Shown in pieces: positions 2,224-33,677 of a stretch of DNA of 37,679 bases. Position 1 is the first letter of the stretch. Every line of letters starts with the position of its first letter. Below the pieces are notes generated by a model. It ran no database searches and had not been told where the DNA came from. It saw only the letters and a list, made by a program, of their open reading frames with translations. The stretch is from the NCBI GenBank assembly GCA_011800155.1, contig JAALGH010000018.1, forward strand, positions 1-37,679, given 5' to 3'. A program made the position numbers and the translations under genes. This DNA comes from Flammulina velutipes. Lineage: Eukaryota > Basidiomycota > Agaricomycetes > Agaricales > Physalacriaceae.

Positions 2224-2302
2224 CTGGTTCCCCTATCGTTGGATCCCTCAATATTCTTCCTGGACTCGGCTCTTGGAAAGGCCAATAGGTAGGAGGACAA
2301 TT

Positions 2303-2368: not shown

Positions 2369-2412
2369 GCAGGCTGAAAACTGTGGCGCTCTCCGTTTTA
2401 TCCTTCGTTACT

Positions 2413-6420: not shown

Positions 6421-7584
6421 TCAACGACGACGACTGGGTCCTGCCACGGAATTTCCCGACGCCAACCCATAGTACTTTAGGACATTGGGATCTCCCCAAT
6501 GCCTAAGTAGATCGTTCACGGCGTCCGTGAGTCTGCCGTTTTGCTCGACCAGCTGGTCGACGTCGTTTCGCAGGTCTTGGATCGTTTCCAGCAATGCTTG
6601 AGGTCGACGTTTGACCGCGTCAGACTCCGGGTCCAACTTCTCGCATTTCAGCTTCATCACTTGGCACCGTATGCAAGACTTGGTCGTAGGGGTCGCGTAC
6701 TTGCACTCCTTGTTTTTCTTGAGACAATCCTTGCAAAGTACTTGAGAGTACTTCCAAAGCTTGTCTGCTGGAATCGGCTCCTTTGCCTTGCGCTTGCCTT
6801 TGCTCTTGGCTGATGGTACGGCGCCCTTAGCCGTTTTTCTCCTCTTTCTCGCAGGCCCTTCACTTTCCGACCCTTCCTCGGAATTGTCCGTTGGTTCGTC
6901 GGAGGGTTGGAAATCGTCGTTGTCGGGCTCGAAGTCATCATCGTTCGGCTCGAAGTCGTTCTCCTGCTGTTCTTCGTCTTCATTCCCATCATCATCACCA
7001 CTGCTACCATCGGCGTCGCCATCTTCTACTTCGCGAGTCCTCTTCGTTCCTTTGGCTTTCGCGGGCGAATCCGGTTTTGACATCGGAGTCGACTTGACGC
7101 TAGGTTTGGGTTTGGCTGCTGGAGCCACCTTCTTACCCACTGCTTTCGTCGTCGTCTTCTTCGTCGTCTTGGTCTTTTTCTTGGGAGAAGGTGCCTCTTC
7201 ATCCACGACCTCCTGTCCGGAGTCATCTTCCATTCTCGCTTGCTTGGCGCGAAAGCTCACCGCTCGTATGAAAGCTACCTCCGGGTCCTCTACCGGAGCT
7301 GCTGCGGGAGCTGCCATTGTCGATAGCTTCGACAACTTTCGGTTTCCCAAGCCCTTGATTTCTTCTGGCGAAGGCATCGCAATGGACGGAAGGGGCATCT
7401 GCTGGGAACCTTGGGTTGGCTTAGCCATCGGAGCCCTAGCAGGCCTAACCATTGCCATTGGTGGCATCTGCATGGGTGCTTGGACGGGTCGAGGTGCCAC
7501 TACCTTTGGACTTGGAGCCTTTGGCATGGTTTTCGTCTTTCGGGGAGGTGGTCGTGGGATCTCTGAACTTGGAGACCTTTCCGG
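6421..7584 (-). pseudogene. A-3, 3' part (Zn2Cys6 and coiled coil), severed by the inner insertion
   Basis: This is the last exon of outer A-3, cut at CCGG (7581-7584) by the inner element. It encodes a Pro-rich stretch, an acidic/basic region, a Zn(II)2Cys6 cluster with the same cysteine spacing as the inner copy (CX2CX6CX9CX2CX6C) and the C-terminal coiled coil. The open frame runs by chance into LTR2 and gains an unrelated start there. About 30 of the roughly 370 residues differ from the inner copy, yet all six cysteines are kept. The matching 5' part is at 25004-26123. Confidence 0.82.
7581..7584. repeat. Target-site duplication CCGG (left)
   Basis: CCGG precedes LTR2 and is repeated after LTR3 at 25004-25007. 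The uninterrupted site is visible in the inner element's own A-3 at 14690-14693, where GACCTTTCCGGGGTTGG is continuous. Confidence 0.95.
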
Positions 7585-9325
7585 TGATGTGCAGTGTAGA
7601 AGAACGCCACAAAAACACACACAAAACACACACTAACAAGTCAATGGTGCGATGCGGGAAAGTCCGAGGTTTATAGCGGGATTTCACGTTATAGTAGCAA
7701 TCGTTCGTTTTGTAATAGGTGGTATGGGACGGGTTCTTGTTCTTTGTATCTTTTGTTTTATGGGACTGTTTCTCTCTATCTTCTGCTCAAAATGCTTATA
7801 CTAGTTCGACGGGGTAACAGGGATCTGATCTTTAAACTGAGTTCTAGTTTGCCACTAAGTCACAGGCCGATTGGGATGTGTGTAAAGAGACCTAATGAGG
7901 CTCTTCCCAGGCCAACAACCTTCAACCACACTAGGGAGCGGGAGCTCTGGTATCTATCTGTATAATCAGGACTCTCCAACAACTAGTCGGGGCCTGAATA
8001 GATAGCCTAGCACAGTCTGAACCACACTTGTATGGGACTTGGGACTCCAACCAGAGTTGGTAGGTTCTTTAGATGGAATTTCCCGCGGAAACTCGGATCG
8101 TTTGAATCGCAAAGGACTTGGCTTCAACTTCTTTAATATGGGAAGTAGCTCCAATGAGTTCTTAGATCTTTGGTTCTGTTTCTTATTTCCACCTATCTAA
8201 ACAGTGGTTCTTTTTCTAACTAAATCTTAGAGTCTATTCCTCCAGTATATACGGCTTGTGGGCTGCGGATACGGGGGGCGTAAGCTACTGTAAATAGTAC
8301 AAACGAGCTAGCTTTATAGTGTTTTCTATATACGTCTGAATAAGGATATAATACCGAGTCCGCTGGTTCGGGGGAATATTCCGATAGGATGTACGGAATA
8401 TCCCTCTAATGGTGCCCTTGGCATTGCTGCCTATTCGTTCTGGCTTCTATTTGCTTTGAATCCAACCAATGGTGGCGCCGTAACTGAGTTTTCAGCGGCG
8501 CCAGGTTGTTCCTTGTGCTTGGAAGCTCCACTATTTCATCGTTTCCACTATTATTAGCGGTCGAGTCCTGTCTAGCAGGAACTCTTAGCCTTTGTTCGTA
8601 TTCTTATTTCATACTACGAGTCCGAGTAGTACCGACTAGGTTTGGTATACTGGACGCGCAAGTATGTTCTTAGTATCGTGTTCGGACTTTTCCGGTAGTA
8701 CTCCGGAAAAGCTATCGTTGTATCTTTACGAGTTGTCGATAGTACTCGTATTGTAGGTCCTTGTAACGATTTACTTGTGGATCCCGAGAATCGATCAGGA
8801 ACAGTCCACCGGAGTAAGTCGATCGGTGATCGAGCAGTATCTTTTGAAAGCCTAAAAGGTTACCCTGACTCCTGAGTCTCCTATGTAATATCCCGACGTC
8901 TGAGTAGTATGAACATTTGGTTTGCTAGTCCAGCCAGCGTTTAACTGCTTGCTGGCGTTGCGTCTCTTTATGTAGAGTTTCCTTGTGTAAGGGTAACTCG
9001 CCGAATTCCGTTAAGTATTTCGGAGTTTCGCGCGTTCAAGTGTATTTGATCACGATGTCTCCATCGGGGTACTTTTGATGATGATATTCAAGATCGTCAT
9101 GTGTGGTTTGGCTATACCTACACGCCCTTCAGCGTGTGGCGCTTTTCCGACGAATCTTAGGAGTTTTCCGGTCGTACCACGGAAACTCCTTACACTGTAT
9201 CGTATACGCGTTTCGGTCTGTAACTAGAGGTTCTTGTACTCATAGGTTCGTTCTATCACTAAGAATGCTTCTTAGAATCGCAAATTTTGGGGTCTTTCGT
9301 ACTTGCATTAATACAATGCGCATCA
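7585..9325 (-). repeat. LTR2 (3' LTR of inner element)
   Basis: 1741 bp, ends TGATGTGC..GCGCATCA. It contains four everted CCG-N9/10-CGG motifs (8381-8396, 8692-8706, 9008-9023, 9168-9182). A TATAAA on the minus strand at 8313-8318 would place U3 at about 9325-8285 and R-U5 at about 8285-7585. At five linked sites in the right half it agrees with LTR4 and not with LTR3. Confidence 0.94.
8687..8711. promoter_or_regulatory. Strongest everted CCG-N9-CGG palindrome in the LTR
   Basis: Perfect 9-bp arms CTTTTCCGG / CCGGAAAAG flank a 7-nt centre. It is present in all four LTRs (1550-1574, 24365-24389 and 34800-34824 are the equivalents, within a base or two). In minus-strand terms it lies in U3, so it could be a protein-binding site for the LTR promoter or form an RNA hairpin at the 3' end of the transcript. 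Confidence 0.5.
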
Positions 9326-9361
9326 TCTCCCATAGACTTATTTGATGGTGTCCGCACCATC
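9326..9361 (-). other. Polypurine tract plus hairpin (module i), inner copy
   Basis: Same structure as at 2188-2223: minus-strand hairpin GATGGTG / CACCATC, then a purine run ATGGGAGA directly before the LTR. It defines LTR2 as the 3' LTR. Confidence 0.75.
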
Positions 9362-9440
9362 CTGGTTCCCCTATCGTTGGATCCCTCAATATTCTTCCTG
9401 GACTCGGCTCTTGGAAAGGCCAATAGGTAGGAGGACAATT

Positions 9441-9506
9441 CCGCTTATTTCAACGGAATTCTCCCGGCTTTGCACGTTCCATTGCCAATATTTCTTCACT
9501 ATAAAA
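9441..9506 (+). promoter_or_regulatory. Promoter region of A-1, inner copy
   Basis: An everted motif ATTCCG-N10-CGGAAT (CCG 9441-9443, CGG 9454-9456) is followed by TATAAAA at 9500-9506 and the A-1 ATG at 9551. The TATA-to-ATG spacing (44 bp) is like that of A-2 (38-39 bp). Confidence 0.6.
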
Positions 9507-9550
9507 GCAGGCTGAAAACTGTGGCGCTCTCCGTTTTATCCTTCGTTACT

Positions 9551-11180
9551 ATGCCTCCCAAGATCCCTCAATGGCACTCCATTGGTTCTTCAATCTCTGC
9601 GGAAGCCCCCATTGCTACGCTGGAGCTCGTCCAGTATCGCCTTGCTACTGCCCCGTTGATCAACGACTTCTTGGTTAATTACTCGCTCCCGGATTCGACC
9701 AACTCCCTTATTGTCGACGCCATCGAACAGCTCACTGCCCCAGTGATGGCCTTGTTGCGTACGGTGTCTGCCAATCCGACGCCACGGGATATTCCGATTG
9801 TCGTTGTGGACAAGTTCTTTAGCAAGTTGCTGGTATGTCTTTCCGCTTTCTTTCTATGTCTCATGCTAAGATCTTTATTTATCTTCTAGCTCATCAATCA
9901 ATCTCTGAAGGGAACCACCGCCGCGGAGGCTTCCTTCGAGATTTTCTCCTTCTTCTGGAATCTGCGCAACGTCCTTGGGGTTTATCTCTTGGAGTTAGGC
10001 GTTAGCCCAACTCATCACCGTATCAACCTTGCGGATATGTTCACTCCAGTTCTTAATACTGTGGGTCGAGGCAAGGCTTATATCGCACCGCCTTATCCCG
10101 AGAGCCACCCCCTTCATGCTGCTTCGCGTGTAGTTCCTAAGGTCAAGGCGCCAGCTCCAGCTCCTGAGCCTACACCTGCACCCAAGCTTACTGCTAAAGC
10201 CATGCGGGCTGCCGCGAAAAAGGTATGGACTTTTCCGCTTATTCTTCGGTCTTTCTAACTTGTATCACTTTCTTAGGCTGGTAAGACTGTTAAGTCTGCC
10301 GCCATTATCGACGATGCCCTCGAGGCCGTTGGAGATACTACCAACGCCACTCCTACTGAGGATATCGGTATGTTCGTTCTTGACCGGCATTTTCCGCTTT
10401 ACTAAACGGACTGTCTGGTGTCTTCAGAAATGGACGATGGTGGGTCTGAATCCGATCTTTCTGACGATGAAGATGTAAGCTCAGTTGCTCCCTTCTAGGC
10501 GTCGCAAGATTGACTCAACCCTTGCAGGACTTGACCATTATCGATGGAGATGGAATGCGCCGCAAGGACTTCCCCCCTTCTCAGGTTCGTACTTGTCTCT
10601 TTCTTCTAAGGCTTGAACTAAAGGCATTTCTCCTTTATTCATAGCCTGCTGAAGTCGAAGGCCCCCGTGTGGTAACTTATCTTCCCTACTCGATGATCCC
10701 AGGTATGCTGATAACTTCTCGCGCATACCAGAAGGCCATGGAGGTTATAGGAAGTACGGTCACTTTCGTGGAACCTGCTCCTTTGCTCACTAAACGCAAA
10801 GCTACGGAAGATGGATCTCCTCGTCCTCTTAAGAGCCTTAAGGTTGACTCCGTTCGTATTGACAACACCTTTGTCGAACAATTCATTGGAGGTGCGTTTA
10901 GTTCTTCTTATCTTAGTCTTATACTTATCGCATTTTTCCGTGTTTCTTAGCGGGCGCTACCGCTCAGAGTTACGGAAGCTCTGTTGCTCGAGTTATCAAA
11001 CAAGTCAACCGACTCCTCGCCGCCGACGAGTTGACTGAACTCGGACCTGGTCTGGTTTCGACTGAGGTGGCGCATCGCAATGAGTTGATTAGACTCTTGA
11101 ATCGTATTCACGGCGACGTCCAGACGTTCAACCGTACCAAGGACTTGTATATCGCTACTGTCAAGTCTATGCTCGAATAG
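9551..11180 (+). CDS. Accessory gene A-1, unknown protein (428 aa, 7 exons), inner copy
   Basis: Predicted exons are 9551-9832, 9890-10222, 10277-10367, 10428-10474, 10528-10584, 10645-10891 and 10951-11180. Introns are 57, 54, 60, 53, 60 and 59 nt, all GT..AG. The frame is kept through phase-0 and phase-1 joints to TAG. I recognise no domain; there is no signal peptide or membrane segment in the predicted protein. Introns 2, 3 and 6 each contain or overlap the everted T-CCG-N9/10-CGG motif (10235, 10394, 10938). The gene has its own TATA box, reads away from the 3' LTR and is antisense to gag-pol. The start is chosen because it follows the TATA box by 44 bp and gives the longest spliced frame. 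The function is unknown. Confidence 0.75.
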
Positions 11181-11624
11181 ATATTTCCCTGTTACAACTA
11201 GGTAGTTGCCCATCCCTTCTTTCCGGGTGATACTACTGTTTACCTATTTGTGTTTCCGGGGCTCTTTATCTTTTATCTTTATCTTTCTGATACTGTAGCC
11301 ATTGCTTATTGACTTCAAATATAACTGTCCCCTAAACTTCGTGTGATTTGAACTTCAAGTTAGACCCCGAAAACACTTGTGCGCCACTTCCGTGATTCCT
11401 AGCGGAATTTCGCATGAAGTCTTCGCCGGTCTCCTTTCTTGCTCTTAGGGGTTTACAATTTTCACTTTTCGTATTGGCAATCTTCTATAGCCTATACGTT
11501 CGTTATTTTCTTCGCCTTGACGAATACCCGACCCATTAGCCAGTCGATCATACACCTCCTATTAGATTTGTACATCGTTTATAAAACTGAACTTTTGTAA
11601 TGTCTCGGTCTTCGTCTGTCTCAG
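11181..11624 (+). promoter_or_regulatory. A-1/A-2 spacer with A-2 promoter, inner copy
   Basis: Contains CTTCCG-N10-CGGAAT (CCG 11390-11392, CGG 11403-11405) and TATAAAA at 11580-11586, 38 bp before the A-2 ATG. An out-of-frame ATG lies at 11601. No other gene is seen. Confidence 0.5.
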
Positions 11625-12792
11625 ATGCCTTCTCCTATCGCTTTGATTCCTCTATGGGCCAACTTCAAAATCGCCATGATTCCGGGTTTGGACAAGCGAT
11701 TTTCCGAGGAGGCCTTGGACTTTTTGCAGGCTGAGACTGGTCTCGCCGTTGCTATATCGTTATATCGCACTGCTCAAGGCTTTCCTATCGTGGCCACGCC
11801 ACTCAATAGCTTGGATCTTACCGCACGGTATACCGATGCGGCTGCGGACTTGCACTTAGGTCCTGCTCGTCAGATAGACGCTCCTACGTTGAGGTTCACC
11901 CTAGGCGTAATGGTACGTCTCGGATTTTTCCTTACATTTCGCGGGTCTAACGGTCTTGATAGCAACACGCTTCTAGTTTGTGGCATTGCGAACATCCCGA
12001 CTTTCGTACAGGGCAAGCCTACAACTTAGCTTCGTTGTATATCGTCTGTCTTCGATTGGTGTCCAACTTCTTTCATGGACGCACGGGAAACTGTACCCTC
12101 GATGGTCTTTCCTTCGAAGGATGGCTTTCCAAAGTATATCGCCAACCCCATATGCACTTTACGGAGTTGTACTTGGATGCTAGCGCCGATTTCATCGTGA
12201 GTTCTTTAACCTATACACCTTTTCCGTACTAAATCTCGGGATTTTCCATAGACCAGCGTAATGTTGGGCTATCATAGGGGAGCGCCTGACTCTTTGGGTG
12301 GGATCTTTGCCCATCCTGAGGTCTTGGATGCTATCCCTGTCCCTCTATCTCGTATGGATGCCAGCGACGTTCAATTGGTCGCTTGGTGGCCTCGTTATCT
12401 TTCCGCTAACAACATTCAGCCCGAGTTTGATACTCGTCCTATCATGTATGAACGGGTCGTTACCAACGGTTATTCGCCTTTACACGATTTTCCGGCTGGG
12501 TTGGTTGACGCTAGTGACCTCAGACTTGGTCCCCACGCCGAACGCTTCACTGAGTTCGTACCAGAGCCCCATTGTGTTGCTCAACGGCGATCTAGCTCAA
12601 CGCCTGAACTTGTTCCAATCAGTTCTCCAGTACCAGTGGTCAGATCTTTCGTAAGTCTTTCTGTTCGACGTCTAGTGTATTATTCTAACACCTTTCTTCT
12701 GATAGACCCACTTCAATACGCTAGGACAGACTATGTGTACCCACTGTCCCACTAGTCATCCTGCCGTCGAATGTACTCCTCCGACCCAGTAG
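11625..12792 (+). CDS. Accessory gene A-2, unknown protein with zinc-knuckle-like C terminus (335 aa, 4 exons), inner copy
   Basis: Predicted exons are 11625-11912, 11963-12196, 12252-12650 and 12706-12792; introns of 50, 55 and 55 nt, all GT..AG and phase 0. The C-terminal CX2CX3HX4C motif lies within the last 20 residues. The body contains no family I can name; it is rich in Trp, His and Pro around residues 97-140. The unspliced frame runs past the third donor to a TAG at 12755, so intron retention would give a longer protein lacking the knuckle. Intron 2 holds TTTCCG-N10-CGGGAT (12224-12239). I see only one amino-acid change from the outer copy in the long third exon. The 3' end faces A-3. 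Confidence 0.73.
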
Positions 12793-13526
12793 TCGGATTT
12801 TCCGTTAAAAGTCTATCATCTTGGTGTTAGACACTTAGTCTATATCGTTTGTCGGTTATCCTATGTCGTAGCGCTATACCTTCAATTTAGACCCTTTCCT
12901 TGTTACCAAGTTCGTTCTGTGGTTCAAATTGATGGTGGCGCGGGAATTCCCGTATCTTCATCGGAGTTGAGTATTCTTCATGCTATTGCATTCGTACTCG
13001 TAGCCTCAGGTATATATGGCTTAAGACCTTCGTTGGCTAGTTCTTCTATGTAACTTGAGACGTACTAGCCTTAGCGTAGCCTCTAGTTATAACCAATGTT
13101 CGCTCTCCTGATAAGTCCGGAGATCGTCATGATTTATGGCGTCTCCCATTGACTTATTAGAAGCTATCCTACTGGTATCTTTGTTGGTCTACTAAGCTTC
13201 CACCTAGTAGAGTCTGTTTTTCCACTTGAAAACCCGGAGAATCCCTTGTCTCAATGACTTGGTATCTCTTGTTGGTTTTCAAGCTTTTTCTTGATCTTAG
13301 TTCACACCATTTTACCAATCTGAAGCGCGCTCGCTATTCTTTTCGTATCTGGCATATCGTATGTATATATATATTTTTGGCACTGAGGCCGCTAAGTCCA
13401 ATGTTCATATATAAGTCCGCGAAGAGGAAGAGTCCGACAAAAACCCGGCATAGAAAACCAAGACTAAAGATTACAAATGTTAGAGGGAGCTAGGCTTCGA
13501 CCTCCTTCACTTGCAAAATCCTTCCC
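12793..13526. other. Spacer between the 3' ends of A-2 and A-3, inner copy
   Basis: No gene. It holds the internal purine-tract module at 13142-13179 and a TA-rich run near 13362-13375. Similarity to the outer copy is very high up to about 13310 and then drops abruptly, marking one edge of a divergent block that continues through A-3. Confidence 0.6.
13142..13179 (-). other. Internal purine-tract module (module ii), inner copy
   Basis: Minus-strand TAATAAGTCAATGGGAGA again matches the terminal PPT at 16 of 18 positions. It lies about 3.8 kb from the LTR-proximal PPT. Confidence 0.5.
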
Positions 13527-15687
13527 CTAACGACGACGACTTGGTCCAGCAACGGCATTTTCCGTTGACAACCCATAGTACGTTAGGACGCTGGGATCTC
13601 CCCAATGCCTAAGTAAATCGTTGACGGCGTCCGTCAGTCTGCCGTTTTGTTCGACCAGCTGGTCGACGTCGTTTCGGAGACCTTGTATCGTCTCGAGCAA
13701 GGCCTGAGGTCGTCGTTTGACCAAGTCGGATTCTGGATCCAACTTCTCGCACTTCAACTTCATGACCTGGCAGCGTATACAGGACTTAGTTGTCGGGGTC
13801 GCGTATTGGCATTCCTTATTTTTCTTGAGACACTCCTTGCAAAGCACTTGGGAGTACTTCCAGAGTTCGCCTTCAGGAATGGGCCCCTTTGCCTTGCGCT
13901 TGCCTTTGCTCTTGGCTGATGGTACGGCGCCCTTAGCCGTTTTTCTCTTCTTCCTCGCAGGCCCTTCACTTTCCGACCCTTCTTCGGAATCGTCCGTTGG
14001 TTCGTCGGAGGGTTGGAAATCGTCGTTGTTGGGCTCGAAGTCCTCATCGTTGTTCAGCTCGAAGTCATCCTCCTGCTGTTCTTCGTCTTCCTTCTCGCCA
14101 TCATCATCGCCACTGCTATCATCTGCATCGCCATCTTCGATCTCCCGAGTCCTCTTCGTTCCCTTGGCTTTCGCGGGCGAGTCCGGTTTTGACATCGGAG
14201 TCGACTTGACGCTGGGTTTAGCTTTGGCTGCGGGAGCCACCTTACCCACAGCTTTCGTCGACGTCTTCTTCGTCATCTTCGTCTTCTTCTTGGGAGAAGG
14301 TGCCTCCTCATCCACGACCTCCTGTCCGGAGTCATCTTCCATTCTCGCTTGCTTTGCGCGAAAGCTCACCGCTCGTATAAACGCCATCTCCGGGTCTTCT
14401 ACCGGAGTTGCTGCGGGAGCTGCCATGGTCGATAGCTTCGACAGCTTTCGGTTTCCCAAGCCCTTGATTTCTTCTTGCGAAGGCATCGCAATGGGTGGAA
14501 GGGGCATCTGTTGGGAACCTTGGGTTGGCTTAGCCATCGGAGCCCTAGCAGGCCTAACCATAGCCATTGGTGGCATCTGCATGGGTGCTTGGACGGGTCG
14601 AGGTGCCACTACCTTTGGACTTGGAGCCTTTGGCATGGTTTTCGTTTTTCGGGGAGGTGGTCGTGGGATCTCTGAACTTGGAGACCTTTCCGGGGTTGGC
14701 GCGGACTTTTCCTTGCGCTCCCCGGAATCCTCTTCCTCGCTCTATCGTAGATCGTATTAGCTGTAATATAGCCTTTAGATTCAAGCTACTTACATCTTGC
14801 TCTTGGCCCTTGGAAGAGCCTTTCTTTTGTCGTGGCTCCTCTTGAGCCTCGCTATCTTCCTGATCCTAACAAATTCCGTTAACATTAGCGGAATTCGCTA
14901 TAACCTGGTATCGTACCTTGTCGACTCGCTTGTCTTCTTCAGGACCCTCGGATCCTGAGTCCTCTTCAACTTCGCTGGTCCTTGCTACGGCCATAGCCTT
15001 GACGGCCTCTTCGTCGTCCGAGCTCTCGCCGCTTGAGTCCTATAACAAGTCCGTTGAATATGCCGGAATCTAGTTCTTCTTCAAATCTCACCTTGACGTT
15101 GCCTTTGGCCTTTGCTCCCTTAGCTTTGTCTTGGTTTCGATCTTCTTCTTGGTCGTCGTCTTCGTCGTCGGACTTGTCTTTTTCGTCGACGACACCCTTG
15201 TCGACCTCTTTGCCTTTACCTTCAGGCGTCTAAGGTTTTTCCGTTGAGTTTCCCGGAATTTACCCGTTTGACTCAAGGAAACTTACTTTGACGTTTCTTT
15301 TCTCTTCAGCCTTCTTCTCGACCTTTTCTTCGTTACCACTTTCATCTTCACTTGTCTAGTTTGATTCCGTTAAATTATCGGAATCTGCCGAAGTGATCTT
15401 CATCTTACCGTAACATCCGGCAACTCATCATATAGTTGCCAAGCCCTCGTAAGGACTTGATCCAACCATACATCGTTGCTCGTTGCCGAATGCTTGAGTT
15501 CGTCGGCGGCTTTCTCGAACTGTCTCCAGAAGACCTGGTAGTCTTCCGGAACGTGGCAGACCGGCAGAGTCCGCCAATTGCCGGGAATAAATCGAAGTCG
15601 TCTGATCGCATTTTTGGAGAAGTGGCGGCGCTCGTATGCGAGCGCCTTGGGTCGGTTTTGTATTTTAAAGAAACTAGTCGAAGACAT
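13527..15687 (-). CDS. Accessory gene A-3, Zn(II)2Cys6 and coiled-coil protein (631 aa, 6 exons), inner copy
   Basis: Predicted minus-strand exons are 15687-15409, 15355-15287, 15229-15092, 15039-14917, 14865-14794 and 14741-13527; introns of 51-57 nt, GT..AG, all phase 0. Residues 1-93 form an unrecognised, probably globular domain. Residues about 94-260 are a highly charged Glu/Asp/Lys region; 263-330 are Pro/Ala/Met-rich; 370-500 alternate acidic and basic blocks with NLS-like KKRK. Six cysteines at about 528, 531, 538, 548, 551 and 558 (CX2CX6CX9CX2CX6C, at 13749-13841) fit the fungal Zn(II)2Cys6 cluster, with a longer central loop than Gal4. A Leu/Val heptad-like stretch (573-605) follows, as in dimeric zinc-cluster factors. 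Four of the five introns carry an everted CCG-N9/10-CGG motif. DNA binding in the nucleus is inferred, not shown. Confidence 0.8.
14690..14704. other. Intact counterpart of the insertion site, itself a CCG-N9-CGG motif
   Basis: In the inner A-3 the sequence TTTCCG-N9-CGGACT is uninterrupted. In the outer A-3 the second element is inserted here, duplicating CCGG. The target is therefore one half of the same everted motif seen elsewhere in the element. Confidence 0.7.
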
Positions 15688-16158
15688 TGTACTTGAAATA
15701 GACGTTGTCGCGTTGATCTGTATCGCGTTTTGGCAGAGTCGCGTCGCTGCGATGGTGGTTGAAGGATGAGTTCGTTTTTCTCAAATTTTCTCTTTAAGTT
15801 CACCATCACGGACCCGGTCCGGTGATCCTGTCGATCAACTCCGAAATGGAAAGGGCCATTCCGTTTTGATGGGCCTAGCTCTTCGGAATCTTATCTTAGA
15901 TTGTGGGGAATTTCCCAACCCCGCATCGGAAATGGTACCTTTTACTTAAAGAAAAGATATTCATCATTTGTACGGTTTGTATGCAGTATATCTTTAACGT
16001 TACTGCTATACTATCTTCGTTCTCAATGATAATACATCTTGAACGTATCGTTGGTATGTACCAAGTAAAATCGAAAATTCCTGGTAAATTCCGTTCGTTA
16101 TTCGGGAATGCCTCTATATCCCCCACAAGCTTTATATGATGGTATCCCTACCATCAGC
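15688..16158 (-). promoter_or_regulatory. Spacer between pol and A-3, inner copy
   Basis: This is the leader or promoter side of A-3. It holds ATTCCG-N9-CGGGAA at 16091-16105 and TATAAA-like sequence on the minus strand near 16131-16136. The 5' leader directly before the A-3 ATG differs by a 1-nt indel from the outer copy, so the longer upstream frame visible there is not conserved and the ATG at 15687 is the better start. No separate gene is supported. Confidence 0.45.
16117..16155 (-). other. Hairpin plus purine tract after pol (module iii), inner copy
   Basis: Three bases after the pol stop the minus strand has GATGGTA-GGGA-TACCATC, then ATATAAAGCTTGTGGGGGA. It resembles the LTR-proximal module: the hairpin differs at three of 18 positions, two of which are a compensating G-C to A-T pair change. 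This is where the 3' end of a compact gypsy element would be expected. Confidence 0.55.
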
Positions 16159-19100
16159 TCATGCTTTCTTGTTTAATTCGTCCATAACTTTGCCTACAGA
16201 GCCACGTATCATGTGTAGTCTCTTGAAGAACAAGTCTCCTAAGAAGCTAGGGTCTTTCCGTGAATAAAACGGAATAACCCGAAACTGCGCAATCTTGTCT
16301 TTGAGTAAGGATCCGTCTAGCTCACATAGGACATAGTTTCCACCAGTCGTACGCGATACTACGGCGTATGGACCCATGAATCGTTCTTTGAACTTGTGAT
16401 TAAGTTCCTCTTCAATCCTAGTATTCCGGACTAATACCAGTTCACCCGTTTTGAACTTGTGAGATGGCATTCTGTTCCTATGATCTTCCATGAACTTAGC
16501 CGCTGCTCGAATCTTGGCATCTGTGACTCTTTGCTTCATACGTTTCACATCTTCTTTGTGTTTAATGAGCTGTTGTGCACGAAACGCTATCAAGTCTGAA
16601 TGCGACACTAAGGAGTCCGGAATATCCACTAACCAAGTCACTTCGTTTATATCTAACGGTAGGATGGGTTCACATCCTGTTACCGCGTAAAACGGTGACT
16701 GTCCAAGTGTTCGTTTAACAGTGATTCGTTCTGCCCATAGTACTTCGTGTAGGTATGCCGGCCATTCTTCGGGATTTCCCCTACAGACTTTGAATAAGGA
16801 TTGTCTTATGTCCCAATGTCCGCGTTCGACCTTCCCATTAGCCTGTTTATTATACGGCGTAATGAGGATACCCTTGACTCCATACTTGGCTTCAATATGA
16901 ACCATTGCCTTCTTAATGGCAGGACCATTATCTGTTATGATCTGCTTTATACATCCCCAACGACATAGGATATCTTCGAAGAGCCAGTCTCCTAGAGTAT
17001 CCGCGTTCTCGTTGATCAAGGCCCTTGCTTCCGGCCAACCACTAAGTCCACATCGAGCCACTGTGACAGCATTATAGCCGTCATACTTTTTGATCTTCGG
17101 ATTTTTCCCGCCTGATTTCGGCATTCGGAATGTGTCCACAAAAGCAGTCTCAAATATTCCTGGTGTTGGTGTAATCGTAGGTTCCTTATGGATGATAATC
17201 TTCTGTCGTTTTTGGCAAAGAATACAAGTCTTAACAAACCAGTTCATGTCGTCTTCCATGCCTGGCCACCAGAACCTCTTGCCAACTAATTGTCGAACTG
17301 AATATTGTCCTTTATGGCCATGTTTATCATGTACTATAGTCACTACTGGCAACCGTTTCCCTACTAAGAGGACTCGTCGGTGCTTGTTTTCTTTGTGCTT
17401 CTTGTATAACTTCCCACCCGCAATGAAGAAATCCTTAGATGCCCAGTCCTTCAACGTTGATAGTTGTCTGGTGGACAATTCTTCAGTTTCATATTCACTG
17501 TTGCGTAGGCAAGCTTCAACGTGTGGCAAGAGAGTTTCCCAGAGTGCTTCTCTACTCGATCTTTCTAAGTCCGGAAACTCATCAATTGCTACCCATTTCT
17601 CAAGGTCTTCTACCGCCATTGCTGCTAGCTGACTAGCGCGGTATTCTTCTGAGGGCTGCTCGAAGTCGTTTACTGAGCTTTCCGGTAAACTTACGGGAAT
17701 TTCCCGTACTTCTTGCAGGTAACCTGTCTTAGTATCTATAGCATCTTTGAAGTCCTCGAAGGGGAGAGGCTTGTCCTCGTCCGCTAAGTCGTTAGGTTCT
17801 TCATACTCAAAGCTAGGCAGCTCGTCTTCTTCTTCATCTCCTGGAGGACGGGGTATGATAATGTCTTCAGGTGCAGGCACCCTTCGACTCAGTCCGTCCG
17901 GACCATGGACTTTTCCAGGTACATGTACCAAAGTGAAGTGGAACATGAGTATCTCTTCTGCCCATCTTTGTAGGTTCCCGTTGGTAAGGGAGTCGATGTT
18001 TGATAGCATTCCCTTAATGTACTTTGCATCGACTTCTACCTTCAGCTTTCGACAACCTAATAGATAGTACTTGCACGCCATTAATGCGCGGTGAAGTCCG
18101 AATAATTCCCTCTTTGATTGTGAGTATCTAGCCTCACGTTCGTCCAAGGTAATCGATAGGAACTTCGCATAGTATCGTTTCTTAGGGTCTTCAGGATCTT
18201 CTTGACTAAGATAAAATCCTACCGCCATATAAGAGGTATCCACCGATAATATAATCGGAGTATCCCAATCATAGTTCAAGGGCTTCAGCATGGGACTTGT
18301 CTCAAGGGCTCTTTTTAATGAGTCCATCGAGGCTTGTTCTTCTTCTCCCCAATGAAACAACACACCATCTCTTGTCAACCTGGTCATTGCCAGTGCTTTC
18401 TTAGAGTAGTCTTTCACAAACGTTCGGAAAACGCCTGCGGTTCCAAGGAATGAACGAACGTCTCTTAAGCATTCACAAGGCACCCAATCTGATATGACTT
18501 TTACTCGTTCTTCTGCAGGTTTACGTCCCTCATAGCAACAGGTATGACCTACTACTACGGTTTCGTTCGCGCAAATGATAGCTTTATGTCCAGAAAAGGT
18601 TCCCCCCGAGTACTTCATGCGTTGTATGATCCTATTCATGTTGATCATATGTTCCCATACGAATCGGCGGATTCCGTTATTTTCACGGATTGTCTCGTAG
18701 TTGCCATCTTTATCTTGGTACCTAGTAGCTGGCCCTCTAACTGGTACATCGTCTATGTAAGGCCTAGTAAAGGCTGGTATTTCGTCTTTGAGAATATGAG
18801 TAACATCTTCGTGGAAGATGGGTACTGAATTCGTCCAACCCATGGGTAAGGTCTTGAGTCGTAATGCCCCATACGGAGTAGAGAACGTTGTCATGTCTCT
18901 GGATTTTTCCGCTAAGTGTCGTTCGTCGTACCCGACATACAAGTCTAGGGTACCCCCACAAGCTCTTCCAGCAAACGCTTCCGCTAATTCTTCGGTGGCG
19001 GGAGGTAAGCCTGAATGCGCAATAGTAACTGCATTCAATGGTTCTAAGCTATGGACCAATCGAAGTTTCTTGCCATCTTTCTTAACTACACAGAACCAAC

Positions 19101-20103
19101 GCGACCTGTATGACGAGTTCGAAGGCTCATACACGCCGGAGTCCAGCTTGTTCTTTATTATCGCGCAGACTTCGTTGAAGATTCCCGGTGGAATCTTGAT
19201 TGGCCTTAGTACCCATGGTACATGAGGTATGACTGGCATGTCTACTGGCGGGAAGAAGTCTTCCCGGAATCTTCCCTTCTCTGATTCTTCCCATGCAAAG
19301 CCTTCATTCTGTTTGCACATGAGGTCGTCTATCAAATCTCGTTCTTGAGGCCATAGGAAATTTCCGGTATGGTCCTTCTGTACTTGTTCTCTTCGTTCTC
19401 CCGTGTATCGCCCGGTGGGTTGAAACTTAGGTGGATTGGGATTCAATACAGGCATTCCCTCCAGGGGATCACCTACAATGTTTCGCACAATTCTGAACTC
19501 GTCTGGTAAGGTTCCTAAGTGAGGTTTGACTTTCAACGCCACTGGCTTATATTTCTTCGAAGCTAGCACTTGTACAGGAGCGGCTTTCTGTTTGACTTGC
19601 TCTAGGAACTTGACTTGTTCTGAGCCCCATGCGTCAGGAGGTAGTGTAACCGTTAGATTGCTAAACACTTTACTTAGTTCGGCGGGAACGTCGTAGAATA
19701 TATTCGCTGTATCCAACTGATGGCTAGCTAAGTCCTGTTCAAAACTTGGAGGATACTTTTGATCGTCTGTTAAAGGCTGACTCCAAGTTTCTATCGTATT
19801 GGACAGGTTTCCATGTTTATGGAAGCCCGCTATCTTCTTGCGTGGAATTTTCCGTTGATTCCCCGGAAATTCCCTTCCTGTGCTATCGTATGCTACAGGC
19901 GGTTCTTCGTATTGATATTCATTGCGCAAGGGTTTAACTGCATTGTGAATACCCTCTGTGGATTTTCTTAGGTATAGGTTCGTAACGGCTTCGGTTGTGA
20001 AAGTTGACCGGGAATCTCCGGGCACATAGGTTTCCACCAAATGTATCCCCTGAGACCCTTGATCACTTAGGATTAGAGCAACCTCTCCTTGATCCTCGAT
20101 CAA
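16159..20103 (-). CDS. Pol: reverse transcriptase, RNase H, integrase (1314 aa open frame), inner copy
   Basis: Intact. RT carries LDLYVGYDE (first Asp about 387) and YIDD (449-452). RNase H has DTS (622), E666, D692 and GPDGLS (736). Integrase has an HX4H..CX2C zinc domain (925-963), catalytic D990, D1058 and E1093, and a GPY-type module near 1245. No chromodomain is seen. The open frame has no ATG at its head: the first codon counted here is TTG, and the frame is open back to about 20151, overlapping PR. It is therefore probably made by -1 frameshifting from PR, with a U5 run at 20121-20125 as a candidate slip site. This copy is the likely source of enzyme activity for the family at this locus. 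Confidence 0.95.
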   Translation of the reverse strand: MIEDQGEVALILSDQGSQGIHLVETYVPGDSRSTFTTEAVTNLYLRKSTEGIHNAVKPLRNEYQYEEPPVAYDSTGREFPGNQRKIPRKKIAGFHKHGNLSNTIETWSQPLTDDQKYPPSFEQDLASHQLDTANIFYDVPAELSKVFSNLTVTLPPDAWGSEQVKFLEQVKQKAAPVQVLASKKYKPVALKVKPHLGTLPDEFRIVRNIVGDPLEGMPVLNPNPPKFQPTGRYTGERREQVQKDHTGNFLWPQERDLIDDLMCKQNEGFAWEESEKGRFREDFFPPVDMPVIPHVPWVLRPIKIPPGIFNEVCAIIKNKLDSGVYEPSNSSYRSRWFCVVKKDGKKLRLVHSLEPLNAVTIAHSGLPPATEELAEAFAGRACGGTLDLYVGYDERHLAEKSRDMTTFSTPYGALRLKTLPMGWTNSVPIFHEDVTHILKDEIPAFTRPYIDDVPVRGPATRYQDKDGNYETIRENNGIRRFVWEHMINMNRIIQRMKYSGGTFSGHKAIICANETVVVGHTCCYEGRKPAEERVKVISDWVPCECLRDVRSFLGTAGVFRTFVKDYSKKALAMTRLTRDGVLFHWGEEEQASMDSLKRALETSPMLKPLNYDWDTPIILSVDTSYMAVGFYLSQEDPEDPKKRYYAKFLSITLDEREARYSQSKRELFGLHRALMACKYYLLGCRKLKVEVDAKYIKGMLSNIDSLTNGNLQRWAEEILMFHFTLVHVPGKVHGPDGLSRRVPAPEDIIIPRPPGDEEEDELPSFEYEEPNDLADEDKPLPFEDFKDAIDTKTGYLQEVREIPVSLPESSVNDFEQPSEEYRASQLAAMAVEDLEKWVAIDEFPDLERSSREALWETLLPHVEACLRNSEYETEELSTRQLSTLKDWASKDFFIAGGKLYKKHKENKHRRVLLVGKRLPVVTIVHDKHGHKGQYSVRQLVGKRFWWPGMEDDMNWFVKTCILCQKRQKIIIHKEPTITPTPGIFETAFVDTFRMPKSGGKNPKIKKYDGYNAVTVARCGLSGWPEARALINENADTLGDWLFEDILCRWGCIKQIITDNGPAIKKAMVHIEAKYGVKGILITPYNKQANGKVERGHWDIRQSLFKVCRGNPEEWPAYLHEVLWAERITVKRTLGQSPFYAVTGCEPILPLDINEVTWLVDIPDSLVSHSDLIAFRAQQLIKHKEDVKRMKQRVTDAKIRAAAKFMEDHRNRMPSHKFKTGELVLVRNTRIEEELNHKFKERFMGPYAVVSRTTGGNYVLCELDGSLLKDKIAQFRVIPFYSRKDPSFLGDLFFKRLHMIRGSVGKVMDELNKKA

Positions 20104-21131
20104 TTCCTCGAGTGTTGCAGAAAAACCGGTATAGCCGCGGGTTGCTGATACCTAGGCATTTGCCCTCTCTTGTATGTAGGCAAAGTGATTTTCTTCCCAT
20201 TGCTGGGATCTGTTATAGTCGCTACGACAGCACCATCTTTAAGGGTGGTTGTATTGATACTCGAGATCACATCAAAGGGTCGTCCTAAAAGGACTTCGTA
20301 TGCAGGGTCTCTGATGATATGAACTTGTAGATAGAACGTTATTCCACCAAAGTCAAATGCTACGTTTCTGGCTAAGCCTGCAGTGCGGGTTTGTCCTTTG
20401 TCGGCGCTTTCCATAATAATGTTGAATGAAGGATCGAATGGGATTCCTAATTCAAGCGCGGCTTTTAACGACATCGATACAATTTGGGACCCGCTATCAA
20501 GTAGACTTTCCTTCTTGCCGGCCCCAAAGATCGTGGGCCATAGGGTTCGAAGGTCAGCACTTTCAGCTGCAACGTTTGATCGTGGTAGTTGGTATGGGCC
20601 AGCGTAACCCGTATGGTTAAACAGTTGTTCGACCAAATCATGGCATACCACTGATCCTAGAGGTAGCTGACTCGAATTTTGTAAGTTAATCGAGTAGTAC
20701 ATAGGATCTTCACTTGCGTGATATTCCGGGATTTCGTCGGATTCAACTGTCTGCTGGTTGACCTTAACGTTCTTTGCTCTTAAGTTTTCTAACAGGTCTT
20801 TCTGCCAAGCCTCGTTAGTCGCTAACAGTTCTTCGGGGAGTAGTTTCTTCCATAGAGAACGCCATCCGGGATTCCGACTAAGGAGATCCTTTAGCTTTGA
20901 TATGCGTTGGTAGCTCTTATGTTTTTCTACTTCCTTCTTTACTGCGGCTTCTTCCGTGGCGTTAGCGGGATTTTCCCGTTTATCTTCAGTCTTGCGACTA
21001 TCTATGGGTTCTGGTCCTTCCAGTACCTCCTCGAGTATCTCACTCAAGTCGGGTTCTTCATCGTCTATTTCCGCCACTGGTGGCTCCACGAATTTTACTT
21101 GTTTCTGTCGAGTAGGGATCACTACTTCCAT
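20100..21131 (-). CDS. Retropepsin-containing protein (PR), inner copy
   Basis: An open frame of 343 aa from the first ATG. LLDSGS (about 211-214) is the aspartic-protease active site, and LLGRPF (281-286) is the conserved C-terminal strand. Residues 1-200 are charged and less typical. The frame is open further upstream, without a stop, to the end of gag (about 21370), reading a Gln/Arg/Pro/Glu-rich linker. It is in the -1 frame relative to gag, so expression by frameshifting is likely, with initiation at the ATG as the alternative. It overlaps the pol frame by about 50 nt. Confidence 0.88.
   Translation of the reverse strand: MEVVIPTRQKQVKFVEPPVAEIDDEEPDLSEILEEVLEGPEPIDSRKTEDKRENPANATEEAAVKKEVEKHKSYQRISKLKDLLSRNPGWRSLWKKLLPEELLATNEAWQKDLLENLRAKNVKVNQQTVESDEIPEYHASEDPMYYSINLQNSSQLPLGSVVCHDLVEQLFNHTGYAGPYQLPRSNVAAESADLRTLWPTIFGAGKKESLLDSGSQIVSMSLKAALELGIPFDPSFNIIMESADKGQTRTAGLARNVAFDFGGITFYLQVHIIRDPAYEVLLGRPFDVISSINTTTLKDGAVVATITDPSNGKKITLPTYKRGQMPRYQQPAAIPVFLQHSRN
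20121..20125 (-). other. Candidate -1 slip site between PR and pol
   Basis: A run of five U on the minus strand within the short PR/pol overlap. It is not a canonical X-XXY-YYZ heptamer in the PR frame, but a single-codon UUU slip would move into the pol frame. The outer copy is identical at 30556-30560. Confidence 0.35.
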
Positions 21132-21304
21132 TCTTAGACCTCTGGGTTGAGGTATCTTCTTTTGTGGTTCAACTGGTTCAGGCTCTTCTGGTTTTTCCTT
21201 TTCTATCGCGCTATGACTTCTTGTACGATGCTGAGTATTTTGGCTCTCAGGAGGGAGGGTTCGCTGTCGCAGTATTTCAGACGAACCTCCGTCCGTCCTC
21301 GAGC

Positions 21305-23198
21305 CTAATCGAAATCCTCCCTTGAATACGCGGGATCGACCATCGACTGCTGTTGGTATATGGATGTGTCAATCGTTCCAGATGGAGCAAAGAAGTCCTC
21401 CTGTTGGATTCCTTCATATGCTTGCACCTGTGGCGTTTCTGGTAGAGTAGATCCCGATTCCCTCTGGAACTTTGCCACTTGCTCGAGCGGATTAGGTCCA
21501 TTCTTGTTTCGTGTAAGAGAAATTCCATTGCGCAGGAAATACCAGTTCGAGTTAGCTGGTTTGTAAATCCAGCCTTCCTTCTCTAGTTTGTTCTTTTCCG
21601 GGCATTCCATAAGGAAATGTCCGGGTTCGTCACAGAAGAAGCACTTCCCGTTCACCGCAGCTGGTCTGCGTTGGGGTAAGAAGTTCGCGGGCATAGGGAC
21701 TAAGCCTTTGGGTGCGGAGGATCCCGAGTTTTGCACGGGATATGGCGCTTGTTGACTTTGTTGTATGTACTGTGGGTATCCCATTTGTTGGGTAGGATAC
21801 TGCTGTACTTGAACTTGTCTGGCCGTTGACATCCGTTCCATGAGGTTCATCATCCTCCGAGTATCTTCTTGTCTAGCTTTCTCCATCTCTTTCATTTCAT
21901 CCTGTCGTGCTTTTTCCAAAGCTTTCAAGGTATCCGTGAGCGAGTTGATACTGGCCACTTGATCGTGCATATCTTCAATCTTTACTCGAGCAGTGGAGGG
22001 TGTTACTAATTCGCGTTCGTTGGTAGCACCTCCATTAACTACAGGGGCTCCTCCGAACGTCTCCACTTCTTCTAAGTATTTTTCAGCTACTCTGACCACG
22101 TCAACTAAGGTCCATCTTTGTCCAAGAGGATTGTTGGGTGGGATCGGTAAAACCCGCAAGTCGGTGTATATTGCTGCCCATGCTGGACCAGCAAAGCAAT
22201 ACTGTAACATATTCAACACCGTCTTTTGAGTAACATCTCCAATATCGATTAGATACTGTAGTTTGTGTACTACCTCTCTTTGAACTCCATCAATCTCATC
22301 TTATTCGCGATCGGCCTTGCCCGAAAGTGGCGAGTGACTTCTTCGACTTCTTCAAGAGTAAACTCTTTATCTTGGTCGCCTTTGTTATACAGTTTTTGTA
22401 CTGCGTTCTTGAAGGCTTGCCAATCTCCGGCTGAATATTCGGGTAAAGCCGCCCATTGGCGTCTAATTTCATATCCCACATACAAAGTTGCTATCTCGAT
22501 TTGGGCTGTAGGGCTCATGATGCCCCTGCCGTAGAATAAGAACTCGCAACTAGTTAGGAAGTCCCTAATATTATCGCCTTTGAATCTTGGGTATCTTTGC
22601 ACCGGGAACGGGCATACGTTTCCCAGCTATCTGTTCTTGTGTCTCTGCGCTTAGCTGGTTAACATAACCAGCTGCCGCTGGGGCACGGGATTTTCCTGTC
22701 TTCTTGCACCATCTTCTTCGTTGTCTCCTTGGTCTGACATTGGGAATAATGGTCTTCCAAGGGGAATCGACTGTCTTAATCGTTCAAGAAGGGATGCGGA
22801 GTGACTGGGAATAGGTTATCGAACTGAGGAAGTTCGTTGGGAGAGGGTGTTAAACTCGGTAAAGGACTAGGACTCGGAATAATCCGAGGTAGTCTAGGGA
22901 AAATAGGGATCGTGGATAGTATATATCCAGGTGGGTAGCCTGTATCCGTTGATGGATTTGCTTGGGCTTTTTGAGACTGAACGTGTTTTAAACGTTGAGC
23001 TTTAGTTCCGTCGAATAATGCGCCTGGAGGCGGTCGTTCGTGTCGGAGTTCTCTTTCAACTGGAGCACTTGAGTTTTCACCCAAGTTAGCTCTACGGCTG
23101 ATTTGTTCTTGATCGTTTGAGCTTTGGCTAGGCGCGGGGTTCGCGTTACTGGCTTTGGGCTTTCGTGCAATTTTGAAGTAGGTGTAGAAGTAACTCAA
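21305..23198 (-). pseudogene. gag with several frame-disrupting indels, inner copy
   Basis: Compared with the intact outer gag, this copy is broken into three open pieces (23198-22776, 22602-22270, 22219-21305). Single-base deletions occur near 22280, 22590, 22599, 22680 and 22789, plus a 3-base insertion near 22712. All fall within about 500 bp. The zinc knuckle CX2CX4HX4C near 21625 is still encoded. The density of 1-nt losses could reflect decay or, if the assembly rests on noisy long reads, sequencing error. Confidence 0.85.
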
Positions 23199-23240
23199 GG
23201 AACCTCAATAAGAGGGATCGTTTAAGTCAAATTTATCACC

Positions 23241-23257
23241 CCTCGCGGTGGGCTCCA
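23241..23257 (-). other. Primer-binding site, inner copy
   Basis: TGGAGCCCACCGCGAGG on the minus strand begins five bases after the 5' LTR end, as expected for pairing with a tRNA 3' CCA end. The deduced discriminator base is U. I cannot name the tRNA. Confidence 0.65.
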
Positions 23258-23262
23258 AAATA

Positions 23263-25003
23263 TGATGTGCAGTGTAGAAGAACGCCACAAAAACACACAC
23301 AAAACACACACTAACAAGTCAATGGTGCGATGCGGGAAAGTCCGATGTTTATAGCGGGATTTCACGTTATAGTAGCAATCGTTCGTTTTGTAATAGGTGG
23401 TATGGGACGGGTTCTTGTTCTTTGTATCTTTTGTTTTATGGGACTGTTTCTCTCTATCTTCTGCTCAAAATGCTTATACTAGTTCGACGGGGTAACAGGG
23501 ATCTGATCTTTAAACTGAGTTCTAGTTTGCCACTAAGTCACAGGCCGATTGGGATGTGTGTAAAGAGACCTAATGAGGCTCTTCCCAGGCCAACAACCTT
23601 CAACCACACTAGGGAGCGGGAGCTCTGGTATCTATCTGTATAATCAGGACTCTCCAACAACTAGTCGGGGCCTGAATAGATAGCCTAGCACAGTCTGAAC
23701 CACACTTGTATGGGACTTGGGACTCCAACCAGAGTTGGTAGGTTCTTTAGATGGAATTTCCCGCGGAAACTCGGATCGTTTGAATCGCAAAGGACTTGGC
23801 TTCAACTTCTTTAATATGGGAAGTAGCTCCAATGAGTTCTTAGATCTTTGGTTCTGTTTCTTATTTCCACCTATCTAAACAGTGGTTCTTTTTCTAACTA
23901 AATCTTAGAGTCTATTCCTCCAGTATATACGGCTTGTGGGCTGTGGATACGGGGGGCGTAAGCTACTGTAAATAGTACAAACGAGCTAGCTTTATAGTGT
24001 TTTCTATATACGTCTGAATAAGGATATAATACCGAGTCCGCTGGTTCGGGGGAATATTCCGATAGGATGTACGGAATATCCCTCTAATGGTGCCCTTGGC
24101 ATTGCTGCCTATTCGTTCTGGCTTCTATTTGCTTTGAATCCAACCAATGGTGGCGCCGTAACTGAGTTTTCAGCGGCGCCAGGTTGTTCCTTGTGCTTGG
24201 AAGCTCCACTATTTCATCGTTTCCACTATTATTAGCGGTCGAGTCCTGGCTAGCAGGAACTCTTAGCCTTTGTTCATATTCATATTTCATACTACGAGTC
24301 CGAGTAGTACCGACTAGGTTTGGTATACTGGACGCGCAAGTATGTTCTTAGTATCATGTTCGGACTTTTCCGGTAGTACTCCGGAAAAGCTATCGTTGTA
24401 TCTTTACGAGTTGTCGATAGTACTCGCATTGTAGGTCCTTGTAACGATTTACTTGTGGATCCCGAGAATCGATCAGGAACAGTCCACCGGAGTAAGTCGA
24501 TCGGTGATCGAGCAGTATCTTTTGAAAGCCTAAAAGGTTACCCTGACTCCTGAGTCTCCTATGTAATATCCCGACGTCTGAGTAGTATGAACATTTGGTT
24601 TGCTAGTCCAGCCAGCGTTTAACTGCTTGCTGGCGTTGCGTCTCTTTATGTAGAGTTTCCTTGTGTAAGGGTAACTCGCCGAATTCCGTTAAGTATTTCG
24701 GAGTTTCGCGCGTTCAAGTGTATTTGATCACGATGTCTCCATCGGGGTACTTTTGATGATGATATTCAAGATCGTCATGTGTGGTTTGGCTATACCTACA
24801 CGCCCTTCAGCGTGTGGCGCTTTTCCGACGAATCTTAGGAGTTTTCCGGTCGTACCACGGAAACTCCTTACACTGTATCGTATACGCGTTTCGGTCTGTA
24901 ACTAGAGGTTCTTGTACTCATAGGTTCGTTCTATCACTAAGAATGCTTCTTAGAATTGCAAATTTTGGGGTCTTTCGTACTTGCATTAATACAATGCGCA
25001 TCA
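23263..25003 (-). repeat. LTR3 (5' LTR of inner element)
   Basis: 1741 bp. It adjoins the PBS on its left side, so it is the 5' LTR. Length and a T4 run match LTR2, but at five linked positions in the right half it matches LTR1, and at one site near the left end it matches LTR4. Confidence 0.94.
23991..23996 (-). promoter_or_regulatory. Candidate TATA box of the inner 5' LTR
   Basis: TATAAA on the minus strand, in context ACTATAAAGC, about 1010 bp into the LTR from its U3 end. It is present in all four LTRs. It would drive gag-pol transcription with a start near 23965. Confidence 0.4.
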
Positions 25004-25007
25004 CCGG
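25004..25007. repeat. Target-site duplication CCGG (right)
   Basis: Second copy of the 4-bp duplication flanking the inner element; see 7581-7584. Confidence 0.95.
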
Positions 25008-33635: not shown

Positions 33636-33677
33636 GGAACCTCAATAAGAGGGATCGTTTAAGTCAAATTTATCACC

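Follow-up and report, generated by a model that had tools for sequence, protein, structure and literature searches.

A giant LTR retrotransposon of Flammulina velutipes with a half-swapped zinc-cluster gene and a dispersed array of everted CGG motifs: a candidate self-recognition system

Our analysis of 37,679 nucleotides (nt) of Flammulina velutipes DNA (contig C18, JAALGH010000018.1, in a genome of 38.1 Mb and 23 contigs; this whole stretch is called the window) reveals one complete long terminal repeat (LTR) retrotransposon, which encodes a predicted zinc-cluster protein, A-3, and carries an array of everted CCG-N9/10-CGG motifs along its length. The repeat map and the pol domains define a 17.4-kb Ty3/gypsy-type element with gag-pol on the minus strand (7585–25003), nested in another copy of itself. 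The insertion splits the outer copy into a left half comprising an LTR and the A region (453–7584, minus strand, 96% identity to 7581–14693) and a right half comprising gag-pol and an LTR (25004–35439, minus strand, 97% identity to 14822–25008). The inner element is bounded, in gag-pol sense, by a 3′ LTR of 1741 bp (7585–9325, minus strand, reading TGATGT..GCATCA on the plus strand) and a 5′ LTR (23263–25003, minus strand, placed by the repeat map and the LTR ends). Between them, all on the minus strand, lie pol (16159–20151, with Pfam domains for reverse transcriptase, RNase H, and integrase), an aspartic protease reading frame (20100–21368, placed by Pfam domains and reading frames), and a gag region of overlapping frames (21305–23204, placed by Pfam and reading frames). 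The Pfam matches to protease, RNase H, and the integrase zinc domain are over the cut-off, while RVT_1 (17.8 bits) and the gag zinc knuckle fall below it. The 1741-bp LTRs, the 4-bp target duplications, and the order gag, protease, reverse transcriptase, RNase H, integrase are those of Ty3/gypsy elements. The genome holds at least 41 matches to the LTR of this family (family 1), one of them a short fragment (best 40 of 125 candidates scored), and 13 full-length A-3 matches without stops.

Three additional genes lie between pol and the 3′ LTR: A-3 in pol sense, and both A-1 and A-2 in the opposite orientation. Introns were assigned by eye; for A-1 and A-3 the assignment was checked by open spliced frames. 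A-1 (9551–11181, plus strand) has six introns and a spliced frame of 428 amino acids, matches no Pfam family over the cut-off, and has a homologue in each of two related families (families 2 and 3, below). A-2 (11625–12792, plus strand) has about three introns, carries TMCTHCPTSHPAVEC near its end, and matches no Pfam family; its frames were read from the sequence and its first splice site is uncertain, making this model less certain than the other two. The A-2 end contains a cysteine/histidine stretch (CTHCPTSHPAVEC) that is somewhat zinc-knuckle-like and has no Pfam match, so that A-2 may bind nucleic acid. A-3 (13527–15684, minus strand, gag-pol sense) has five introns and a spliced frame of 631 amino acids, in which a charged body is followed by a Zn2Cys6 cluster (13698–13865, minus strand) and a coiled coil; a long acidic stretch is also present. 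In the genomic RNA of the element the introns of A-3 are in sense orientation, and unspliced RNA must therefore survive for the element to be copied with its introns kept.

The initial annotation described A-3 as a Zn2Cys6 coiled-coil protein, and fold and profile matches, together with the six-cysteine pattern, support this description with one change: the two halves of the cluster are swapped. Specifically, the first half matches residues 20–39 of the Pfam profile and 27–49 of Gal4, which is their second half, while the second half matches residues 2–18 of the profile and 8–27 of Gal4, which is their first half. The canonical order, with the recognition half first, is thus absent from A-3, and the cluster would be a permuted Zn2Cys6 variant. 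A structural model built from a 7-row alignment (pLDDT 69.1, replacing a single-sequence model of pLDDT 63.5) was compared with the Protein Data Bank (PDB) using Foldseek: all 17 matches with E values up to 10 are to Zn2Cys6 chains, each weak alone (best E 0.096). A Pfam scan gave weak matches only, Zn_clus and ZapB among them. When the two halves of the family 3 cluster were scanned singly, neither matched Pfam; the joined domain did. A PDB sequence search with the long protein returned nothing relevant, and a homologue search returned four matches for A-3 and one for the family 3 protein, all unnamed (best 7993 candidates scored in one search). The ratio of nonsynonymous to synonymous substitution (dN/dS) in the zinc and coiled-coil region is 0.03 in 7 of 13 copies, indicating strong purifying selection on this region. 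The literature matches listed, a partial set that does not establish absence, include no report of a permuted Zn2Cys6 cluster. No zinc-cluster gene inside an LTR retrotransposon is reported among them either, with the same limit.

The array is far in excess of expectation. A both-strand count of TCCGN{9,10}CGG, as proposed in the initial annotation, gives 134 matches in the window versus 7.5 ± 3.0 in dinucleotide shuffles, and none of 100 shuffles reaches 134. Because LTRs occur four times in the window and the A and B regions twice each, the spacings were counted on one unit of 15.7 kb (7585–23262). In this unit, CCG-N9-CGG occurs 23 times and CCG-N10-CGG 17 times, versus about 2.4 expected for each under an order-3 Markov model, while the remaining everted spacings between 0 and 30 each occur 0–7 times versus about 2–3 expected. 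With the flanking bases included, TCCG-N9-CGGA occurs 10 times and the N10 form 11 times, and the remaining spacings 0–3 times. T precedes CCG or A follows CGG in 35 of the 40 unit sites, and neither is present in five. The fuller family 1 site reads GG-N4-TTCCG-N9/10-CGGAA-N4-CC, the outer GG being present at 35 of 80 half-sites versus a background of 5.5%. This outer GG accounts for most of a second spacing peak, CGG-N6-CCG, 13 of whose 21 occurrences overlap everted sites in a tally of the unit listing. The motif fits the paired CGG triplets that are read by Zn2Cys6 dimers.

Genome-wide, TTCCGN9/10CGGAA occurs at 348 places, versus 85 for a reversed control, and the 2.2 kb to the right of the outer copy (35460–37679) contains no N9 and no N10 site. 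All 22 CCG start positions listed in the initial annotation are correct, with T before CCG in 22 of 22. Two of its statements on distribution do not hold: gag does contain a site (22427–22442, N10), and the supposedly site-free host flanks (453–7584 and 25004–35439) are the outer copy of the same element, carrying the same sites.

The 35 T/A-flanked sites, given here by position irrespective of strand, are dispersed, with a mean gap between sites of 461 bp. Five lie in the LTR (7664–7679, N10; 8381–8396, N10; 8692–8706, N9; 9008–9023, N10; 9168–9182, N9). Five lie in other non-coding DNA: upstream of A-1 (9441–9456, N10), between A-1 and A-2 (11390–11405, N10), between A-2 and A-3 (12950–12964 and 13434–13448, both N9), and upstream of A-3 (16091–16105, N9). 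Eight lie in introns. In particular, A-1 has sites in introns 10223–10276 (10235–10249, N9), 10368–10427 (10394–10409, N10), and 10892–10950 (10938–10953, N10, extending 3 bases into the exon); A-2 has one in intron 12197–12251 (12224–12239, N10); and exactly one site lies in each of four of the five A-3 introns, namely 14866–14916 (14876–14891, N10), 15040–15091 (15051–15066, N10), 15230–15286 (15241–15256, N10), and 15356–15408 (15367–15381, N9). Eight lie in A-gene coding sequence: one in an A-1 exon (10960–10975, N10), a weak one in an A-2 exon (11833–11847, N9), one at the end of A-2 (12781–12796, N10), and five in A-3 (13973–13987, N9; 13994–14008, N9; 14183–14198, N10; 14390–14405, N10; and the exonic 14690–14704, N9, whose outer-copy counterpart took the nested insertion). 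Nine lie in gag-pol: six in pol (16258–16272, N9; 17682–17696, N9; 18243–18258, N10; 18674–18688, N9; 18981–18995, N9; 19852–19866, N9), two in the protease frame (20726–20740 and 20954–20968, both N9), and the gag site. Site density is 10.4 per kb in introns (768 bp in total), 2.9 in the LTR, 2.6 in other non-coding DNA, 1.9 in A-gene coding sequence, and 1.3 in gag-pol. Introns are thus 3.6 times as dense as the LTR, and their enrichment is significant against both the whole unit (binomial p 2.4e-4) and non-coding DNA only (p 0.007). Several gaps of 160–190 bp suggested a nucleosome-like spacing, which we do not claim: the coefficient of variation of the gaps is 0.73, and the gaps are partly set by the spacing of the introns.

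This distribution bears on the main rival to an anti-silencing role, namely that A-3 is a plain transactivator of the element's own promoters, with the genic sites serving as extra enhancers. Retroelements can encode their own transactivator, as foamy viruses do with Tas/Bel-1. Regulation of transcription is the typical role of Zn2Cys6 proteins, A-3 has its acidic stretch, and sites do stand in the LTRs and upstream of A-1 (9441), A-2 (11390), and A-3 (16091). The array, however, runs through pol coding sequence and is densest in introns, beyond what promoters need, and we consider this rival unlikely.

Comparison of family 1 copies reveals that the motif cores are conserved. Fifteen copies of a 4.1-kb stretch containing 14 sites were aligned, and 12 were used besides the reference, L003 and L004 having been dropped for a nested LTR in the stretch. 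Divergence at the 14 sites is 9/977 (0.9%) in the cores and 396/4841 (8.2%) in the flanks, with 103/1548 in the spacers and 30/651 at the −1 and −2 bases. To control for CpG content, the conservation of CCG/CGG triplets was compared inside and outside motifs: 316 of 325 motif cells keep them versus 827 of 998 non-motif cells, with gapped cells set aside (11 motif, 22 non-motif) and both triplet sets chosen in one reference copy.

The everted sites could alternatively act as RNA, with TTCCG and CGGAA as hairpin stems and the 9–10 nt as loops, within introns or the genomic RNA. Perfect 5-bp stems are indeed formed by many sites, and family 1 has a weak excess of pairing at −3 to −6 (p 0.0024). 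Stems not ending in CCG, however, are unenriched at loop lengths 9 and 10 (16 and 23, versus a mean of 19.3), one of 12 positions reaches p 0.04 in family 2 and none does in family 3, and what is conserved is base identity, beyond pairing. The generic hairpin was on these grounds mostly rejected, the weak family 1 signal remaining, and we regard a role in RNA as highly improbable.

Through distant A-3 matches we reached two related families, family 2 (L031, L032, L034, L091, L092) and family 3 (L033). In the stretches read, both carry genes of the same kinds. The pol of family 2 is identical to that of family 1 at 485 of 599 residues (~81%), while the zinc proteins of families 2 and 3 have about 29–37% identity to A-3 over the aligned part. 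Both families have dense arrays: CCG-N9-CGG occurs 30 times in 7 kb of L031, 18 times in 6 kb of L032, 32 times in 10 kb of L033, and 35 times in 9 kb of each of L091 and L092. The array is also present in L092 with no intact six-cysteine pattern in that stretch. As a comparison set we used five further gypsy elements from this genome (6 kb, part of each element, 30 kb in all; L090 and L093 are one family, so that the five represent four families). None has an array: the N9 counts are 2, 0, 0, 2, and 0 (total 4) and the N10 counts 1, 3, 4, 1, and 0 (total 9), with a mean of 4.8 for other everted spacings, and no six-cysteine pattern occurs in these 6-kb stretches. The initial annotation had named equal density in sequence of similar composition as the observation that would speak against its reading, and these 30 kb do not show it. 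The array and the zinc gene thus occur together in the three families examined, and neither occurs in the 6-kb stretches of the five other elements. As a side observation, family 3-like copies at G000:C15:29272-41510 and C22:20072-32310 stand in inverted pairs with equal numbers of stop codons.

The motif differs between families along with the zinc protein. T stands at −1 in 56 of 80 half-sites in family 1 versus 23 of 148 in families 2 and 3 (Fisher p 4e-16), N9 and N10 sites number 74 and 10 in the latter but 23 and 17 in the former (p 3e-4), and the outer GG is frequent in family 1 only (35/80 versus 10/124 half-sites). Correspondingly, TCCG-N9/10-CGGA and CCCG-N9-CGGG occur 21 times and once in family 1, and once and 11–12 times per stretch in the four family 2 and 3 stretches counted. 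The zinc proteins of family 2 and family 3 are ~60% identical to each other, and these two families have the same tag type. Over the 599 aligned pol codons, family 1 has three sites and family 2 five, with no position shared; 279 of the 485 codons for the same residue differ between the two, indicating ample time for the loss of sites. Dense arrays in both families, no shared positions in pol, and this divergence together indicate that the arrays have turned over and been kept up independently. The copies are related by descent, and the array might accordingly be chance or inherited repeats without function; the spacing peaks, the conservation of the cores, and the complete turnover of positions in pol make that probability almost negligible.

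The same comparisons bear on whether the array is read, as an insulator or repressor, by a zinc-cluster factor of the host, in the way that the arrayed sites of Drosophila gypsy are read by host Su(Hw). Fungi have many Zn2Cys6 factors, and we infer binding by A-3 itself. That array and gene occur together in three families, and that the motif flanks vary with the element's own zinc protein, argues against a host factor, as does contig C2, which has no family 1 match among the matches listed and only seven scattered TTCCGN9/10CGGAA places. We judge this alternative very unlikely. The initial annotation had proposed that A-3 recognises the DNA of its own element; the presence of array and gene together in three families, with flanks and spacing differing with the zinc protein, supports this proposal, short of proof, as do the zinc-cluster fold matches and the strong purifying selection on the zinc and coiled-coil region.

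Insertion of the lineage at CpG is its second unusual trait. Target duplications are 4 bp and read NCGN in family 1 and its relatives. Where both ends of a family 1 insertion are available (n = 11, ten pairs and the inner element of the window), 10 of 11 have identical 4-bp flanks with central CG; the exception, C8:154314, has TCGG and TCAG. Single family 1 flanks have central CG in 18 of 18, a few of these coming from the same insertions, and 16 of 54 fetched flanks were left out as containing no insertion point. The outer copy of the window has non-identical flanks, CCGC and GCGG. Among the relatives (family 2/3 pattern), an LTR end is present in 11 of 14 fetched flanks and all 11 have central CG; three of four loci with both ends match, the fourth having GCGG and CCGC. 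For comparison, 4.9% of the dinucleotides in the sampled flanks are CG. None of the literature matches listed, a partial set that leaves absence unestablished, describes a fungal LTR element inserting specifically at CpG.

The insertion points also bear on a nucleoprotein or tether, in which A-3 would pack the 17-kb cDNA, retain it in the nucleus, or steer integration into existing copies. Coating of the whole length would suit such a role, and the nested insertion (7584/25004) interrupted a site: its duplication CCGG (7581–7584, repeated at 25004–25007) falls within the outer-copy sequence that corresponds to site 14690. No site, however, lies at the point, corresponding to window position 12083, where at least one further insertion entered a family 1 copy (C5:595160-626260), and the insertion points seen are sufficiently described by CpG alone. 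Self-targeted integration at the motif was set aside as the main reading, and we hold the tether as a whole to be quite unlikely.

The surroundings of the nested pair include two further features. The left flank at the LTR (1–452) equals that of C5:2727604, while the right flank (35440–37679) resembles that of C12:9214; C18 may represent another haplotype, a recombination product, or an assembly chimera. An inverted repeat with arms of ~150 bp (92%) at 37041–37679, with similar sequence in L032 near 1050–1600, is probably a small inverted-repeat DNA transposon.

The explanation that we favour, by a modest measure and by analogy with the VANC proteins of plant VANDAL elements, is that A-3 binds its own element lengthwise and keeps its chromatin open, having arrived at this function by convergence. 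That the element recognises its own copies is probable; that the purpose is escape from silencing is perhaps so. The element would encode a sequence-specific DNA binder with a Zn2Cys6 cluster, a coiled-coil dimeriser, and a long charged arm, whose dimer site, TTCCG-N9/10-CGGAA, is scattered about every 460 bp through LTRs, introns, intergenic DNA, and coding sequence. A-3 made from any one copy could then bind along every copy and hold it open to transcription, whether by bringing in activators or by keeping out or erasing silencing marks, and the effect would be confined to the element, sparing host genes. In this account the array, its conservation, its turnover between families, the zinc-cluster match, and the co-occurrence of gene and array are observed, and binding, dimerisation, and the chromatin effect are inferred. 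The host has DNA-methylase matches over the cut-off, and its three TET/JBP matches are all below it. A predicted element-encoded binder together with a short-motif array on its own element is the arrangement of VANC. Three observations weigh against the explanation: the sites are dispersed and do not form tandem repeats in non-coding DNA, 17 of the 35 lie in coding sequence, and CpG decay, as a trace of past methylation, gives no signal either way. The broader proposal, that a lineage of giant fungal LTR retrotransposons invented self-recognition and anti-silencing, with each family encoding a half-swapped zinc protein and writing everted CGG arrays into its own DNA, coding regions and introns alike, to give at least two self-tags in one genome, is more tentative, and we put it at slightly short of an even chance. 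If true, it would provide a convergent case in a fungal retrotransposon, built on a small, well-understood DNA-binding fold with at least two tag types in one genome, and the question could be put to simple swaps of proteins and sites. The swapped cluster may also reveal how everted half-sites are read.

To our knowledge, plant VANDAL elements are the only transposons for which it is understood in detail how silencing is defeated while the remainder of the genome stays silent; their VANC is not known to be a zinc-cluster protein. Drosophila gypsy and Su(Hw) are similar in having arrayed protein sites, but Su(Hw) is host-encoded and its sites are not known to cover the whole element; foamy virus Tas is similar as an element's own transactivator, but likewise is not known to cover the whole element. 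Leu3, Put3, Ppr1, Gal4, and Pho7 share with A-3 the cysteine pattern, two short helices, linker, coiled coil, and CGG half-sites, and Leu3 binds everted CGG (PMC5559640, and PDB matches); A-3 differs in its swapped halves, its spacing of 9–10, and its residence in a retrotransposon. Fungal DNA transposons that carry a TET/JBP dioxygenase (PMC12730594) are likewise fungal elements with their own presumed counter to silencing, theirs being an enzyme and A-3 a putative sequence-specific binder. Retand, a plant gypsy element, also has an extended region separating pol from the 3′ LTR, with antisense genes, one product of which is a suspected DNA binder; its domain is TRP28, however, and the available part of the source reports no motif array on its own element (PMC11963269), while here the zinc protein is in sense and A-1 and A-2 are antisense. 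The closest comparison is with VANC (Hosaka et al. 2017, PMC5735166). VANDAL is a Mutator-like DNA transposon, not an LTR retrotransposon; VANC motifs are non-palindromic, often tandem, and non-coding, whereas those described here are everted and dispersed; and demethylation, over the whole element, is demonstrated for VANC, whereas anti-silencing here is suggested by analogy (PMC5735166). In both systems, short motifs are spread along the element that encodes the DNA-binding protein (here predicted), for VANC and VANC21 in introns, intergenic DNA, and terminal non-coding regions, and in both, related families have motifs of their own (PMC5735166).

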